A stretch of DNA of 49,335 nucleotides, from the NCBI GenBank assembly GCA_030149325.1, contig JASBRS010000037.1, forward strand, positions 1 through 49,335, in the 5' to 3' direction. Origin of the DNA: Deinococci bacterium. Lineage in GTDB: Bacteria > Deinococcota > Deinococci > Deinococcales > Trueperaceae. Below, in pieces: positions 42,152 through 49,335 of this stretch; the stretch's first letter is position 1, and every line of letters begins with the position of its first letter. Both the position numbers and the translations under genes were made by a program. The notes beneath the pieces were generated by a model. The model was not told the DNA's origin. It saw nothing but the letters and a program-made list of their open reading frames with translations, and did not search any database.

Positions 42152-43021
42152 TCACTGACTCCGCGGATCCAGGGCGTCGCGGAGGCTGTCTCCGAGGAGA
42201 TTGAAGGCGAGCACGGTGACGAAGATGGCGACGCCGGGCTCGATCGATAGATAGGGGGCCGAGTACAGATAGGTACGTGCCTGGTTGATCATCGCACCCC
42301 ACTCCGGGCTCGGCGGCTGTGCCCCCAAGCCCAGGAAACTCAGCGTCGCGGCCGTGAGGATGCTGGTGGCCAGACGCAGGGAGGCGTACACGATCAGCGG
42401 AGAGAGGATGTTGGGCAGGATGGTGCGGCCCAGGATGCGGCCGTGGCCCGCCCCGACGGCCAGGGCCGACGACACGTAGTCGGCCTCGCGCACCGCCAGC
42501 ACGGCGCCGCGCGTGATGCGTGCGAAGGTGGGCACCGAGAACACCGCGACCGCCACGATGACGTTGATCAGGCTGGTGCCCAGGGCGGCAACGATGGAGA
42601 TCGCCAGCAGGATGCCGGGGAAGGCGATGAGGACATCGTTCACCATCATGATCGGGCGATCGAGGCGGCGGAAGTAGCCCGCCAGCAGACCGAGGCTCAC
42701 CCCCACCAGCAGGCCGAGCAGCACCGAGGTGATGCCGACGGTGAGGGAGATACGAGCGCCGAAGAGCATGCGGCTGAGCTGGTCACGTCCGAAGGCGTCG
42801 GTCCCCAGCAGGTGGCCGGGCGTCCCGGGCGCCTTCAACACGGCGGCGTAGTCCTGGTAGTAGGGGTCGGCCGGCGACAGCAGCGGCGCCAGCAGGGCAG
42901 CGAGGGTGACCAGGACGGCGAGGGTGGCGCCGACCATGAAGTGGGGGCTGCGGCGCAGGCGCCCCAGCACCTTGGAGCCCCGGCGGGCGCTCGTCGACGG
43001 GCGTAGCGAGACGGTGCTCAT
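42152..43021 (-). CDS. Peptide ABC transporter permease, DppC-type
   Basis: A 289-residue permease with an N-terminal cytoplasmic segment (RRGSKVLGRLRRSPHFMVGA) typical of the OppC/DppC N-terminal domain, then about six helices. HLLGTDAFGRDQLSRMLFGARIS is family-diagnostic, here seen as LLGTDAFGRD and FGARISLTVG. The EAA loop is READYVSSALAVGAGHGRIL. It overlaps dppB by 4 nt and precedes ggt by 14 bp. No ATPase gene is in the operon. Confidence 0.9.
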   Translation of the reverse strand: MSTVSLRPSTSARRGSKVLGRLRRSPHFMVGATLAVLVTLAALLAPLLSPADPYYQDYAAVLKAPGTPGHLLGTDAFGRDQLSRMLFGARISLTVGITSVLLGLLVGVSLGLLAGYFRRLDRPIMMVNDVLIAFPGILLAISIVAALGTSLINVIVAVAVFSVPTFARITRGAVLAVREADYVSSALAVGAGHGRILGRTILPNILSPLIVYASLRLATSILTAATLSFLGLGAQPPSPEWGAMINQARTYLYSAPYLSIEPGVAIFVTVLAFNLLGDSLRDALDPRSQ

Positions 43022-43956
43022 GCGTAGCGGATGGTGGGGTTGAGGAGGGCGTAGGAGAGGTCGACCAGCAGGTTCACGAGGACGAAGGTGGTGGCGATCA
43101 GCACCACGCTCCCCTGGACCACGGCGTAGTCGCGCGCCAGGATGCTGTCGACCGCCAGGCGGCCGACGCCGTTGATGGCGAACACCGACTCCGTGACCAC
43201 GGCGCCGCCCAGCAGCGCGCCGAAGTTCAACCCGAGCACGGTGATGACGGGGATCATGGTGTTGCGCAGGGCATGGCGGAAGAGGACCGCGCGCTCCGGC
43301 AGGCCCTTGGCGCGCGCCGTCCGGATGTAGTCCTGGCCGAGCACGTCGAGCATGCCGCTGCGCGTCAGCCGCGCCACCAGCGCCATCCCGCCGGTCCCCA
43401 GGGTGACGGCGGGGAGGATCAACGATTTGAGCCCGTCGGCGCTCAGGAAGGGGTGGTGGTAGCCCGCCACCGGGAACCAGCCGAGGTCGACGGCGAACCA
43501 GATGATGAGCAGGATGCCGAGCCAGAAGTTGGGGATCGACACGCCCAACAGCGAGACGTTCATGAGCGCCAGGTCGGTGAGGCTGTTGGGGCGGGTCGCT
43601 GCCATCACCCCCAACGGGATGCCGATCAGCGTGACCAGCATGCTGGTCAGGGCCAGCACCGCGGTGTTGGGCAGGCGGACGGCGAGCATGCTCCGCACGC
43701 TCTCGCGCCGCTGCAGCGACTCGCCCAGGTCGCCGTGCACCAGGTCCCAGAGGAAGGTGCCGTATTGGACGTAGAGGGGCCGGTCCAGGTTGAGCCGTTG
43801 TCGGATGCTGGCGATCTCCTGCGCCGTCGCGGTGGGCCCCCCGATCAGCTCCGCCGGGTCGCCGGGGGCGAGGTGGAGGATCAGGAACGTCAGGACGGTG
43901 ACGCCGAGCAGCACCGGGATCGCTTCGAGCAGGCGCCTGAGGCTGTAGGTCAGCAC
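43018..43956 (-). CDS. Peptide ABC transporter permease, DppB-type
   Basis: A 312-residue permease starting RRLLEAIPVLLGVTVLTFLI, with PGDPAELIGG and GTFLWDLVHGDLGES, as in DppB/OppB. The EAA loop is ARAKGLPERAVLFRHALRNT and the C-terminus reads DLSYALLNPTIRYA. It has about six helices. It forms the channel with the DppC-type permease that follows, overlapping by 4 nt. It is separated from the binding-protein gene by 60 bp holding a hairpin. Confidence 0.92.
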   Translation of the reverse strand: MLTYSLRRLLEAIPVLLGVTVLTFLILHLAPGDPAELIGGPTATAQEIASIRQRLNLDRPLYVQYGTFLWDLVHGDLGESLQRRESVRSMLAVRLPNTAVLALTSMLVTLIGIPLGVMAATRPNSLTDLALMNVSLLGVSIPNFWLGILLIIWFAVDLGWFPVAGYHHPFLSADGLKSLILPAVTLGTGGMALVARLTRSGMLDVLGQDYIRTARAKGLPERAVLFRHALRNTMIPVITVLGLNFGALLGGAVVTESVFAINGVGRLAVDSILARDYAVVQGSVVLIATTFVLVNLLVDLSYALLNPTIRYA

Positions 43957-43999
43957 GGCTCGACGTCACCCGTCCCGTTCACGAGAGGCCTGGGGTCGC

Positions 44000-44017
44000 G
44001 TGGCGGGGGTCCGCCAC
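44000..44017 (-). terminator. Hairpin after the first binding-protein gene
   Basis: GTGGCGG and CCGCCAC form a 7-bp stem with a 4-nt loop right at the stop of the binding-protein gene. Such hairpins often lower permease expression relative to the binding protein. Confidence 0.45.
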
Positions 44018-45510
44018 TACGGCATGGTGGCGTTCGCGATCGACCACTCGTTGTTGGGCAGCAACGTGATGCCCGAGACATCGGCGCGATGGGCGATCAG
44101 CGCGACCCCGTCGTAGAGCGTCACCCACGCCACGTCCTTGAGCATCAGGGCGTTGGCCTGGTTGAGCAGGTCGAGCCGCTTCTGCTGATCGGTGGTCGCG
44201 CGGCTCGCCTCGATGAGCTGGTTGGCCGCCGGGTTGTCGTAGGCCGAACGGTTGGAGGCGCCGATGTTGGCCGAGTCGAGGTTGGGGTAGACGAGCTCCG
44301 AGCCGTCGGCGGTGCTGTTGGTCCAGCCCAGCAGGTAGAGGTCCTGCTCGTACTTCTGCGTGGCCGACAGGTAGGCCCCCCACTCGACGGTCTTGATGGT
44401 GGTGGGGATGCCGGCCTGACTCAGCTGCCCCTGCAGGATCTGGCCCACCCGCGGGTAGTTGCCGGTCTGCGGCACCCACAGGGTGACGGGTCGGGCGTCC
44501 TTGACCTGGCTCCACAACTGCTTGGCCTTGGCCGGGTCGTACGGCGTGCAGTTCGACTCGACGCCCTCGACGTAGCCGAACACCTGCGGGCCGATGATGC
44601 TGCAGTCGGGGTTGGCGAGCGGCGCCAGCAGCTTGGAGATGACGCTGATGTCGACGGCCGAGGCGACCGCCTCACGCGCCGTCTTGTCCTGCCACAGCGG
44701 CTCCTTGTAGTTGAAGCCGAGGTAGAACACCGGCGTCCCCGGCTTCATGACCACGTCGATGGCCTTGTTCTGCTGCAGCCGGCTCACCAGCTCCGGCGGC
44801 ACCGTATCGATGAGCTGGACGTCGCCGCGCTCCAGCAGGGCGACCTGGGTGTTGACGTCGGGAACCACTCGGATCACGAAGGTGTCGATGGCGGGCGCCT
44901 TGCCCCAGTAGTTGGGGTTGCGCACCAGGGTGATGTGGTCGCCCGACACCCATTCCTTGAGCATGTAGGGGCCGGTGCCGACCGGGTTCTTCATGAGGTC
45001 ACCGTACTTGGCCACGGCCGTGGGGCTGACGATCGCCGCGTTGGCGTGCGCCAGGGCGGCCAAGAAGGCGCCGTAGGGCGCCGAGGTGGTGATCTTGACG
45101 GTGTAGTCGTCGATGACGTCGATGCTCTTGATGGGCTTGAGGAGGCTGGCGCGCGGCGCGCCGACCTTGGGATCGAGGATGCGCTCGAAGGTGAACTTCA
45201 CGGCCTCGGCGTTGAAGGGCGTGCCGTCCTGGAAGGTCACGCCGTGACGCAGGTGGAAGATCCAGGTGTTGGCATCGGGGGTGTCCCACGAGGTGGCGAG
45301 CCAGGGGATGAGCTGGTTGGTGGCGGGGTCGCGCGCGACCAGGTTCTCGTAGATGTGGCGCTCGGGAACGGACGACACGGAGTCGTTGGTGAGCACCGGG
45401 GAGAGGCCGACGGCATCGGCCTGGGCGGCGTAGGTGAAGGTCGCCGCCGCCGCCGATGCGACGAACGCACCGGCCAGGACGATCGCGATGATACGGACGA
45501 GGCGTTTCAT
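44017..45510 (-). CDS. Peptide ABC transporter substrate-binding protein (family 5)
   Basis: A 497-residue exported binding protein with a Sec signal peptide (VRIIAIVLAGAFVASAAAA) and no lipobox. The order is normal for SBP_bac_5: LIPWLATSWD, FHLRHGVTFQDGTPFNAEAV, NPVGTGPYMLKEW and YDPAKAKQLW in the first 330 residues, then GQILQGQLSQAGIPTTIKTV, LGWTNSTADG and NQANALMLKDVAWVTLYDG at the end. It serves as an internal reference for the permuted protein at 47717. Its ATG overlaps the gntR stop (ATGA). Confidence 0.92.
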   Translation of the reverse strand: MKRLVRIIAIVLAGAFVASAAAATFTYAAQADAVGLSPVLTNDSVSSVPERHIYENLVARDPATNQLIPWLATSWDTPDANTWIFHLRHGVTFQDGTPFNAEAVKFTFERILDPKVGAPRASLLKPIKSIDVIDDYTVKITTSAPYGAFLAALAHANAAIVSPTAVAKYGDLMKNPVGTGPYMLKEWVSGDHITLVRNPNYWGKAPAIDTFVIRVVPDVNTQVALLERGDVQLIDTVPPELVSRLQQNKAIDVVMKPGTPVFYLGFNYKEPLWQDKTAREAVASAVDISVISKLLAPLANPDCSIIGPQVFGYVEGVESNCTPYDPAKAKQLWSQVKDARPVTLWVPQTGNYPRVGQILQGQLSQAGIPTTIKTVEWGAYLSATQKYEQDLYLLGWTNSTADGSELVYPNLDSANIGASNRSAYDNPAANQLIEASRATTDQQKRLDLLNQANALMLKDVAWVTLYDGVALIAHRADVSGITLLPNNEWSIANATMP

Positions 45511-46229
45511 GGCTCCGTTACCTCCCTCGGGCTGATGCCCTGGTCGCGAACGATGCTGCGTTCGACGGCCTCCAGATGGTCGAGCACGGCGCGGCGAGCG
45601 GCGTTGGCGTCGCCGCCGATGATCGCCTCGGCGATCGCCGTGTGTTGCTCGAGCGCCAGCACCGGCTGGTCGCCCGTGAGCATGCGCGCACGCAGCTCGC
45701 TGAGCATGGCCCGCAGGGTGTCGAGCACCTGCAGGACGGTAGCGTTGCCCGCCACGCGGGCGATCAAGCGGTGGAACTCGACGTCCTCGCCGAACAGGCG
45801 GCGGCCCGAGCCGACGATGCGCGCCTGCCGCTCGAGCGCGGCGCGCAGGTCGGCGGCGTCGGTCTCGCTGCAGCGTTCGGACGCCAGCACGGCGATCTCG
45901 GGCTCGAGGATGCGCCGGAACTGCAGCAGGTCCTCGGCGAGTTGCGGCTGGTTCTGGAGGAGCGTCCGGAAGGGCATCGCCAGCGCTTCGCCGCCGGGGT
46001 TGCGGACGACCGTGCCGTCGCCCTGCCGCACCTCCAGGTAGCCGAGCAACTGCAGGTCGCGGATGGCGTCGCGGAGGGTGGTGCGCGAGACGCCGAAGTG
46101 GTTGGCGAGGTCGCGCTCGGGGGGCAGGCGGTCACCGTCCGTCAGCTCGTTGTCGCGGATCATCGCCAGCAGGGCGTCGCGGACCTCGTCCGAGACCTTG
46201 CGGCGTTTGATGGTCTCGCGGGTGTCGAT
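45507..46229 (-). CDS. FadR-type GntR regulator (FCD), probable ATC start
   Basis: A repressor of about 240 residues. The winged helix runs ETIKRRKVSDEVRDALLAMI to PPERDLANHFGVSRTTLRDA and LLGYLEVRQGDGTVV. The FCD ligand domain includes FGEDVEFHRLIARVAGNATV. No ATG, GTG or TTG exists where the family starts. However, ATC at 46229 sits 6 nt after a strong GGGAGG. The open frame runs on to a GTG at 46367, but this lacks a ribosome site and adds 46 Pro/Ala-rich residues. I favour the ATC start with caution. It heads the operon gntR / binding protein / dppB / dppC / ggt, which it probably represses. Confidence 0.75.
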   Translation of the reverse strand: MDTRETIKRRKVSDEVRDALLAMIRDNELTDGDRLPPERDLANHFGVSRTTLRDAIRDLQLLGYLEVRQGDGTVVRNPGGEALAMPFRTLLQNQPQLAEDLLQFRRILEPEIAVLASERCSETDAADLRAALERQARIVGSGRRLFGEDVEFHRLIARVAGNATVLQVLDTLRAMLSELRARMLTGDQPVLALEQHTAIAEAIIGGDANAARRAVLDHLEAVERSIVRDQGISPREVTEP

Positions 46230-46382
46230 GGCGTGCCTCCCTGCCCTCGCCCCGTCGCGAGGGGATGATGGAACCGTTGGGGCTGCGGCGCCGGCGTGAA
46301 CGCCAGCGCCGCAGCTTTGGGTCCGTCCGGACTCGTCCGGTGTCGGGTGGGGGGGAACCGGCACCACGGAACAAAGGTTGTA

Positions 46383-46430
46383 TGGTCGGACCTCTTCAGG
46401 AGTCTAGTGGGGGGAGCGCCCGCTTGTCAA
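46383..46430 (-). promoter_or_regulatory. gntR-operon promoter with FadR-like operator
   Basis: On the minus strand TTGACA (46425-46430) and TAGACT (46401-46406) are 18 nt apart. Just downstream, 46383-46393 reads TGGTCGGACCT on the plus strand, matching the TNGTNNNACNA consensus of FadR-type GntR proteins in all but the last base. It overlaps the start site, as for autorepression. Confidence 0.6.
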
Positions 46431-46496
46431 GCGCCGCCCATCGGCGCGGCGGAGGCGTCGCGCTAGCATGGAGCAACGACGACGGGAGGGGTGTGC

Positions 46497-46907
46497 GTGC
46501 GACGGATGACGGTGGGATCGGGGTCGCCCTTTGAGGCGAGCATCGGCTTCTCGCGGGCCGTGCGGATCGGCGACCGGGTGGCGGTGTCGGGGACGGCGCC
46601 CATCGCCGAGGACGGCTCGCCGGCGGCGCCGGGCGACGCCTACGCCCAGACGCGCCGGTGTCTGGACATCATCGCTGCCGCCCTGGAGCGTGCCGGCGCT
46701 CGCCTCGAGGACGTCCAGCGCACGCGCGTGTACCTCACCGACAGGGCGGTCTGGGAGGCGGTGGCGAGGGCCCACGGCGAGGTCTTCGGGGCGATCCGGC
46801 CGGCCAGCACCTTCGTGGTGGTGGCGGCGCTGCTCGACCCCGCCTGGCTGGTGGAGATCGAGGCCGAGGCGGTGATCGGCTCCGGGGTCGCCGAGGCGGG
46901 CCCGTGA
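46497..46907 (+). CDS. RidA/YjgF-family enamine/imine deaminase
   Basis: A 136-residue RidA-type protein. GFSRAVRIGDRVAVSGTAPI is the N-terminal strand region. AYAQTRRCLDIIAAALERAG and DVQRTRVYLTD contain the conserved Arg that binds the substrate carboxylate. WLVEIEAEAVIGSG ends the fold with the catalytic Glu. RidA proteins hydrolyse reactive enamines/imines from amino-acid metabolism. The GTG at 46497 lies 6 nt after GGGAGGGG; ATG at 46506 is an alternative. A TAGCAT box is at 46464-46469. The next gene overlaps its stop. Confidence 0.88.
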   Translation: MRRMTVGSGSPFEASIGFSRAVRIGDRVAVSGTAPIAEDGSPAAPGDAYAQTRRCLDIIAAALERAGARLEDVQRTRVYLTDRAVWEAVARAHGEVFGAIRPASTFVVVAALLDPAWLVEIEAEAVIGSGVAEAGP

Positions 46908-47245
46908 GACGGACGCGCTGGCACGTGCCTGTCGCCGAGATCCTGGCCGCGCTGCCGGCACCGGACGGCTCGCGCCTGGCGCCGGTGTTCGACCGTGGCG
47001 ACGTGAGCGTCGAGCTCTACGCCCCCCGCGGCCGCGACGAGCAACGACCGCACGAGCGCGACGAGCTCTACCTGGTGGTGGCCGGCGCCGGCAACTTCCG
47101 CTGCGCGGAGACGCGGGTGGCCTTCACGGCCGGGGACCTGCTGTTCGTGCCCGCCGGCATGGAGCACCGCTTCGAGGACTTCGGCGACGAGCTGGTGGTG
47201 TGGGCGGTGTTCTTCGGGCCGCAGGGCGGCTACGGCGTGGGCTGA
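46904..47245 (+). CDS. Single-domain cupin protein
   Basis: A 113-residue cupin. Motif 1 is RPHERDELYLVVAGAGNF with His50 and Glu54, and motif 2 is GDLLFVPAGMEHRFEDF with His88, so a 2-His-1-Glu metal site is likely. The function of such small cupins ranges from dioxygenase to sugar binding and cannot be assigned. Its GTG overlaps the RidA stop (GTGA), so both are translated together. Confidence 0.85.
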   Translation: MRRTRWHVPVAEILAALPAPDGSRLAPVFDRGDVSVELYAPRGRDEQRPHERDELYLVVAGAGNFRCAETRVAFTAGDLLFVPAGMEHRFEDFGDELVVWAVFFGPQGGYGVG

Positions 47246-47716: not shown

Positions 47717-49228
47717 ATGCGTCGGTGGAAATGGCTCCTCATACTCGTTTTGGTGCTTCTGGTGGGGGTTGCGAGCGCCAAGAAGCTGTCGTTCGTGCTC
47801 GACACGACCGACAATCGCGCGGACGAGGCCCAGGCGATTGCGGCCCAGCTGCAGCAGATCGGCATCGACGTGCAGGTGCGCGTCTGGAAGAGCAACGTGT
47901 TGCTCGACGCCATCAAGGCCGGCAGCCGGCAGGCGTACACCACGGATTGGGGGAGCGCCTACTTCGATCCCTTCGACCTGGGCATCCCCAAGCTGACCAC
48001 CGGGGGGCGGGGCAACTACTCGTTCTACAGCAATCCCAAGGTCGACGAGGACTTCAAGGTCGCCTCGACGACGACGTCCGACGCCCCTCGAGCGGCCGCC
48101 TACAAGGACGCCCAGCAGGTCATCTTCAACGATGCGCCCTGGATCTTCGGCTACGTGCTGCAGAACATCGAGGCCTCCTCGAACGCGGTGCAGGGCTGGG
48201 GCCCGGCGGCCGACAACAGCGAGTCGCTGGCCGGCGTGAGCGTGCAGGGCGGCAGTAGCCTGGTCCTGGGGATGCGCACCGACCAGATCGTCACCTTCGA
48301 CCCGGCGATGTACCGGGATCGCGACACCGAGGCCGTGCTGCGCAACATGTTCGACTCGCTGGTGACGCACACCCTGGCCGGCGAGGTGGTGCCGCAGCTG
48401 GCGACGTCCTGGAGCAAGGTCGACGACAAGACCTACGACTTCACACTCCGGAGCGGCGTCACCTTCCAGAACGGCGATCCGCTCACGGCGGACGACGTGG
48501 TCTACACCTTCCACCGGATCCTGACGCCGGGCGCCGTCAACGGCGAGACCAGCCCGCGCGCCGGCCTGCTCGGCCCCCTCGACCATGTCGAGAAGATCGA
48601 CGCCACGCACGTCCGCTTCGTGTACAAGGACCCCTTCCCGGAGTCGCTCCTGCTGCAGGCGCTGGTCCACTTCCAGATCGTGCCCCAGGCGTACATGGAG
48701 AAGGTCGGCGTCGACGCCTTCAAGAAGGCGCCGATCGGCAGCGGTCCGTTCCAGTTCGTGCAGGGCAGCCTCGACTCGCAGATCGTGCTGAAGCGCTACG
48801 ACGGCTACTGGGGCGGACCCGCCAAGCTCCAGCAGGTCGTCTTCCGGATGATGCCGGAGCCTTCCACGCGCGTCGCCGCGCTGCTCTCGGGCGAAGTGCA
48901 GATCATCCAGGCGGTCCCGGCCGATCTCGTGGCTCGCCTGAAGAGCGCGCCGTCCATCACCGTCAAGACCGCGGAGGGCACGCGCGCGTACCAGATCGAG
49001 CTCAACAACAAGGTCGCACCCTTCAACGATCCGCGCGTCCGCCAGGCCCTCAACCTCGCCATCGACTGGGACAGTATCCTGAAGAACATCTACCTCGGCT
49101 ACGGGCAGCGGCTCGCCACCGCGTTCCTGCCCAGCGGCTTCGGCTACGACGCCTCGCTCGAGCCCTACCCGTACGACCCCGCACGGGCCAAGGAACTGCT
49201 CAAGCAGGCAGGATACGACGGCAACTAA
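47717..49228 (+). CDS. Circularly permuted family-5 substrate-binding protein
   Basis: A 503-residue exported protein with signal peptide MRRWKWLLILVLVLLVGVAS-A, cleaved near residue 21. Residues 23-165 are what normally ends such proteins: DEAQAIAAQLQQIGIDVQVR, TDWGSAYFDPFDLG, NYSFYSNPKVDEDF, DAQQVIFNDAPWIFGY. Residues 166-181 look like a linker. Residues 182-503 are what normally begins them: TFDPAMYRD, EVVPQLATSW, FTLRSGVTFQNGDPLTADDV, APIGSGPFQF, DPRVRQALNLAIDW, and last YDPARAKELLKQAGYDGN before TAA. In normal proteins that last motif leads into the segment now found at the N-terminus. It has its own promoter and ribosome site. No permease follows within the window. Confidence 0.8.
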   Translation: MRRWKWLLILVLVLLVGVASAKKLSFVLDTTDNRADEAQAIAAQLQQIGIDVQVRVWKSNVLLDAIKAGSRQAYTTDWGSAYFDPFDLGIPKLTTGGRGNYSFYSNPKVDEDFKVASTTTSDAPRAAAYKDAQQVIFNDAPWIFGYVLQNIEASSNAVQGWGPAADNSESLAGVSVQGGSSLVLGMRTDQIVTFDPAMYRDRDTEAVLRNMFDSLVTHTLAGEVVPQLATSWSKVDDKTYDFTLRSGVTFQNGDPLTADDVVYTFHRILTPGAVNGETSPRAGLLGPLDHVEKIDATHVRFVYKDPFPESLLLQALVHFQIVPQAYMEKVGVDAFKKAPIGSGPFQFVQGSLDSQIVLKRYDGYWGGPAKLQQVVFRMMPEPSTRVAALLSGEVQIIQAVPADLVARLKSAPSITVKTAEGTRAYQIELNNKVAPFNDPRVRQALNLAIDWDSILKNIYLGYGQRLATAFLPSGFGYDASLEPYPYDPARAKELLKQAGYDGN

Positions 49229-49335
49229 CCCGTATCGCCGCCGTCGGGCCCCCCCGCGCGGTTCCGCGGCGCCCCCCCCGCACCCCCAGGGGTGAAGGGG
49301 CCCGGGCCCCCCCCCGCGCGGCGGCGGCGGCGTGA
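49229..49335. other. Low-complexity GC-rich sequence at the window end
   Basis: After the stop codon the sequence is dominated by long C and G runs (C7, C8, C9) with palindromes such as GGGGCCCGGGCCCC (49297-49310) and CACCCC-CA-GGGGTG (49281-49294). The latter could be a terminator stem, but the runs and the terminal GGC repeats look like a poorly resolved sequence end. No gene is seen. Confidence 0.5.

Follow-up and report, generated by a model that had tools for sequence, protein, structure and literature searches.

A circularly permuted SBP_bac_5 solute-binding protein shared by Trueperaceae and Bacillota

The open reading frame at positions 47717-49228 of the window (the whole stretch of DNA that was analysed, 49,335 nucleotides) starts with ATG, stops with TAA and encodes a solute-binding protein (SBP) in which the normally C-terminal part precedes the normally N-terminal one. 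Is this order an inherited circular permutation or an artefact of the contig edge that follows the gene, and, if inherited, how did it arise and what would the protein do? The gene and its parts are located as follows.

47717..49228, plus strand: circularly permuted SBP_bac_5 solute-binding protein, 503 aa plus stop (Pfam, PDB, orthologues)
47717..47779, plus strand: signal peptide, residues 1-21 MRRWKWLLILVLVLLVGVASA, probable cleavage ASA/KK (sequence inspection; low AlphaFold2 pLDDT)
47783..48211, plus strand: normally C-terminal third (residues 23-165), now first (5u4o 378-507, DppA 1dpe 363-493)
48212..48259, plus strand: junction or linker (residues 166-181; alignment of permuted proteins, pLDDT 86-95)
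48260..49225, plus strand: normally N-terminal two thirds (residues 182-503), now last, ending in ...YDPARAKELLKQAGYDGN (Pfam 1-280, 5u4o 43-360)
49226..49335, plus strand: stop codon and GC-rich contig end with C/G homopolymers (contig coordinates)

The match of this protein to Pfam SBP_bac_5 (PF00496) scores 308 bits, against a curated cut-off of 32.4, over two stretches, the best of which places residues 223-502 on profile positions 1-280 of 368; the ordinary SBP of the window (44017-45510, minus strand) gives a single collinear SBP_bac_5 stretch, with residues 67-416 on profile positions 2-366. In a phmmer comparison with PDB 5u4o, residues 179-501 align with chain positions 43-360 (i-E 5.8e-47) and residues 37-163 with positions 378-507 (i-E 1.4e-8), that is, in swapped order, and a profile of 29 permuted proteins reproduces the swap on 5u4o, 6ofq, 3m8u and E. 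coli DppA (1dpe), with second-domain E-values of about 1e-9 to 1e-16. The displaced C-terminal third includes the strand W78-G-S-A-Y-F-D-P, which aligns with the ligand-pocket strand of DppA. The ordinary SBP genes of the window genome show the normal order wherever both parts are alignable. The N-terminal two thirds, which come first in SBP_bac_5 and cluster C proteins, come last here and, judged by its sequence, the protein is a permuted variant of SBP_bac_5, not a typical member. Both the segment order and its reading as a circular permutation, as put forward in the earlier note, are borne out by these swapped matches and by orthologues with the same order and the same end.

The claim that start, promoter and signal peptide are all genuine fared less uniformly. 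The start and the signal peptide do look genuine; the latter is without a lipobox Cys in the window member and has low AlphaFold2 pLDDT (57-66 over residues 1-20). By inspection, the export signal is a lipobox in several other permuted proteins (L069-L072, L075, L076). For the promoter, there is a -35-like TTGACA upstream of the open reading frame, and a promoter and terminator scan found no site above threshold.

The permuted form occurs in about 30 genomes of bacteria belonging to two phyla. Scanning genome contigs recovered two carriers named as Deinococcota/Trueperaceae and, sharing their segment order, the Bacillota MAG L040. A search of related genomes for this order, suggested in the earlier note, yielded orthologues in 5 other Trueperaceae genomes, each matching in one collinear piece along the entire protein (66-68% identity) and one of them a single-contig 2.92-Mb assembly, as well as full-length homologues in at least 23 Bacillota genomes at 51-56% identity. 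Among 111 Deinococcota genomes, the intact permuted form turned up only in Trueperaceae. The 399 sampled Bacillota genomes contain 25 matches that span essentially the whole protein (a count that includes L040's own genome, one match with an in-frame TAG and one with an assembly gap near the 3' end), plus one cut by a contig edge. In the class of L040's genome, the family is present in 13 of 17 genomes, with all candidates scored and one match in each, so that no genome of that class was found to carry both a permuted and a normal-order orthologue.

Several matches are best considered separately. The homologue L067 (G345 contig C44, 1501-3030) has an in-frame TAG and is either a pseudogene or affected by a sequencing error. 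In another Deinococcota family, L051 (G077 contig C103, 122-844) is a decayed fragment that comprises the junction and the N-derived part of a permuted SBP and then passes abruptly into the middle of a permease gene, as would be expected of a remnant left by a deletion. Some plasmid matches appeared to follow the permuted order collinearly, among them that of Pseudosulfitobacter (H9), in one piece over residues 49-502; this was rejected as an over-extended alignment because the annotated SBP gene, of 496 aa, begins within the match, which runs upstream into an antisense gene. A further plasmid match, from Ciceribacter (H1), comes without annotation.

Because the contig ends where the window does, 107 nt past the SBP stop and in GC homopolymer sequence, the window alone cannot exclude a further lobe downstream, and an SBP with an extra C-terminal lobe in front, whose true 3' end was lost at the low-complexity edge, had been offered as an alternative to permutation. 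The orthologues exclude it: each of the 28 homologues whose 3' end is ungapped and followed by real sequence terminates no more than a few residues from one shared AGY motif, mostly with DppB following at once, and the 5 Trueperaceae orthologues all end at most 3 residues from this motif, with DppB next. This end being shared by the 2.9-Mb single-contig genome and by complete-looking Bacillota genomes, the alternative is refuted for practical purposes, and we consider it extremely improbable. Moreover, the closest permease in the window genome, which matches at 73% the DppB located beside the orthologue in G004, lies on a separate contig (C75) and starts 102 nt from the contig end, pointing away from the break, as expected if only an intergenic gap is missing. 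Since this gene starts at a contig end and both ends are rich in GC homopolymers, the operon of the window genome was most likely split by a gap in the assembly that separates the SBP stop from DppB. The C/G homopolymer-rich stretches are 49226-49335 in the window and 2496-2598 of L102 at the end of G000 C75; the strong GC stems predicted at the intergenic break are no better than those of shuffled sequences (z -1.1 and -0.8).

A chimeric assembly or a binning error that joined two SBP genes might be suspected in a genome of 102 contigs with about 15 other SBP genes, but about 30 genomes have this junction, and it recurs in independent assemblies, including the single-contig 2.9-Mb genome and complete-looking Bacillota chromosomes, which reduces the probability of such an error to next to nothing. 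The permuted SBP is a real, inherited rearrangement.

The normal-order orthologue L081 ends in ...NWEPSPDSRINLHDVGLKD and has the mature start ...EEGKTLVVGLRQSVLTLDPAMHRDR, and the junction of the permuted L040 reads ...NWQPSMDSRINLHDVGITQGDTIVVAMKEDKIVTLDPAMYRDR: the RINLHDV-like tail of a normal C-terminus is followed almost immediately by the xGGxTIVVG-like start of a normal mature protein. The junction is gapless in 28 of the 29 permuted proteins, with a single one-residue indel among all 29 sequences. AlphaFold2 pLDDT is 86-95 over residues 161-180, a result that bears on the linker at 166-181, for which the earlier note had proposed a structural check on whether it bridges the old termini. 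The new ends fall where normal proteins have AGYPxGFxLVID. The two parts are 151-153 and 331-338 aa long in permuted proteins and 154-161 and 331-337 aa long in the close orthologues of normal order, with L027 at 152 and 341 aa; given these matching lengths, no part was lost.

In a tree built on concatenated alignments of the two halves from the 29 permuted proteins and normal-order orthologues, the permuted proteins group together in a single clade (96/97). Its sisters, with weak support (88/72), are three Bacillota orthologues of normal order, and additional orthologues of that order branch outside (96/81, 98/92, 100/99). As a single clade nested among normal-order orthologues, the permuted form is derived. 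The Trueperaceae proteins comprise one group (100/100), and horizontal transfer between Trueperaceae and Bacillota, in either direction, is likely.

The permutation most likely occurred once, in an ancestor common to the present Trueperaceae and Bacillota copies. The simplest route would lead from tandem duplication via in-frame fusion to trimming of the outer parts, the old C-terminal tail becoming joined almost residue for residue to the old mature N-terminus and the new ends opening within lobe II, at the turn between helix and strand that follows AKELLKxAGY. We infer this route from how the junction is built and from the nesting of the permuted proteins as one clade, both of which it fits; to this extent, the earlier proposal of duplication followed by loss of the outer halves holds, and a tandem intermediate was not seen in the loci and genomes examined. 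Alternatively, the gene could have split and its halves rejoined in reverse, or the permuted form could have had several origins. Fission and fusion would also explain why the mature N-terminus was joined without its signal peptide and why a tandem intermediate is not seen; the single clade (96/97), the near-gapless common junction and the common stop position nevertheless favour one event, and half-gene pairs were not seen in the loci examined, so that we regard these alternatives to a single duplication with trimming as unlikely.

The permuted chain is predicted to adopt the ordinary bilobed fold of cluster C. The AlphaFold2 model of the permuted protein, obtained with the 29-sequence alignment, has a pLDDT of 92.7 and a pTM of 0.85 (pLDDT of 85.6 for a normal-order orthologue), and its order of secondary structure elements is that of the normal-order model after rotation; the modelled protein has the bilobed SBP_bac_5 fold. 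Foldseek searches of the PDB retrieve cluster C SBPs with TM of about 0.5-0.56, aligning only the N-derived two thirds because the Foldseek alignment is sequential. In both sequence and fold, the proteins matched are cluster C SBPs for peptides, nickel, heme and opines. The dN/dS values between Trueperaceae pairs are 0.06-0.33 over the whole protein; for the short stretch of the junction, one divergent pair reaches 0.66.

In OppA and DppA structures, we take the old termini to sit close to the hinge in lobe I and the new ones to belong to lobe II. The secreted or lipid-anchored N-terminus would now emerge from lobe II instead of lobe I, and the lipobox-bearing members should be tethered to the membrane through lobe II. 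The permutation may even have been adaptive, with the relocation of the secretion or lipid-anchor terminus into lobe II, out of lobe I, and the sealing of the old ends near the hinge altering tethering or docking on DppB/DppC and thereby explaining conservation in two phyla, a tentative idea that we consider conceivable and rather doubtful.

In most of the loci examined, DppB is located directly 3' of the permuted SBP, a few loci showing only DppC under the labelling used. Permuted and normal-order forms alike stand ahead of DppB-DppC and often of DppD-DppF too; in the window genome, the Dpp-type permease is found across the contig gap. Trueperaceae and Thermaerobacter-like loci (L083, L082, L085) have only DppB-DppC beside the SBP, and other Bacillota loci (L089, L090, L093) have DppD/DppF as well; where DppD/DppF are not adjacent, the ATPases must lie elsewhere. 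The protein would be the extracytoplasmic SBP of a Dpp/Opp-type ABC importer (SBP-DppB-DppC, with or without DppD/DppF) that binds and delivers its solute by the usual Venus-flytrap closure of the lobes, the solute-binding function probably being retained.

A standard dipeptide is a doubtful ligand on the available sequences, because the Asp through which DppA binds its ligand (Asp408 of the pocket, which contacts the peptide amino group) is replaced by Ala in 26 and by Ser in 3 of the 29 permuted proteins, which in this respect are not of the dipeptide-binding DppA type; the nine normal-order orthologues do not have Asp at this position either. All 29 permuted proteins have Ser80 and Phe83 in the strand corresponding to that of the DppA ligand pocket (within 47774-48211 of the window), and the nine normal-order orthologues have Asn80 in all cases and mostly Leu83. 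The replaced Asp and these family-specific residues could mean that the permuted protein lost its import function and took another role, such as receptor, scavenger or chaperone; with the permuted SBP lying directly 5' of DppB/DppC in most loci, like its normal-order sisters that also are without the Asp, such a change of role appears quite improbable. We are highly confident in the account as a whole, namely, a Dpp/Opp-type importer SBP permuted once, most simply by duplication and trimming, that is predicted to have the ordinary fold and to have kept its binding function.

The normal-order SBP_bac_5 (PF00496, cluster C) orthologues, for example, those in G386, G365, G496 and the Bacillota MAG AS23ysBPME_101 (L041), are 47-56% identical to the permuted proteins over the larger part and 38-49% over the smaller, and have in common with them the SBP-DppB-DppC-DppD-DppF operon and the RINLHDV-like C-terminal tail; they differ in their linear order, in an N-terminal lipobox at the start of the lobe I part, and in having Asn80 rather than Ser. 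Both segments of the window protein also align to the solved SBP_bac_5 structures of E. coli DppA and OppA and B. anthracis 5u4o, all of which are linear, and the pocket strand has Asp in DppA (WTGD) versus Ala in the window protein (WGSA).

A natural circular permutation of an ABC importer SBP is known from cluster B: TpMglB-2 (Tp0684) of Treponema pallidum and its homologues form 'Cluster Bc', permuted cluster B SBPs (PMC4990184). TpMglB-2 binds glucose despite the permutation and changes conformation on binding, and its authors proposed tethering as a possible reason for the permutation (PMC4990184). It differs from the present case in its cluster B sugar-binding fold, in its breakpoint and in the poor sequence match of the moved part, whereas the permuted SBP_bac_5 protein belongs to cluster C, is clearly homologous to normal members in both parts and has a normal-order sister with the same operon; the cluster B (type I) sugar-binding fold of Cluster Bc is not that of the window protein. 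Our search of the literature on permuted OppA, cluster C and solute-binding proteins, in which subscription journals were thinly covered, found only TpMglB-2 and engineered biosensors and no report of natural permutation in SBP_bac_5.

It is uncommon for a natural permutation to combine clear sequence homology of both parts with a known sister in normal order and an unchanged gene neighbourhood. The event can be placed on the tree as a single one, and the matched pair, with the same operon and the same fold in different chain order, makes the effects of topology, folding order during secretion and anchor position on an SBP testable. Standard family models (Pfam, NCBIfam) label permuted SBPs as ordinary partial matches. 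The permuted SBP is also a natural template for permuted biosensor scaffolds.

Upstream of the permuted gene, the window region 42152-47245 encodes, on the minus strand, DppC/DppB permeases, the ordinary SBP and a GntR/FCD regulator, followed on the plus strand by a RidA-like gene (46491-46907) and a cupin gene (about 46904-47245).
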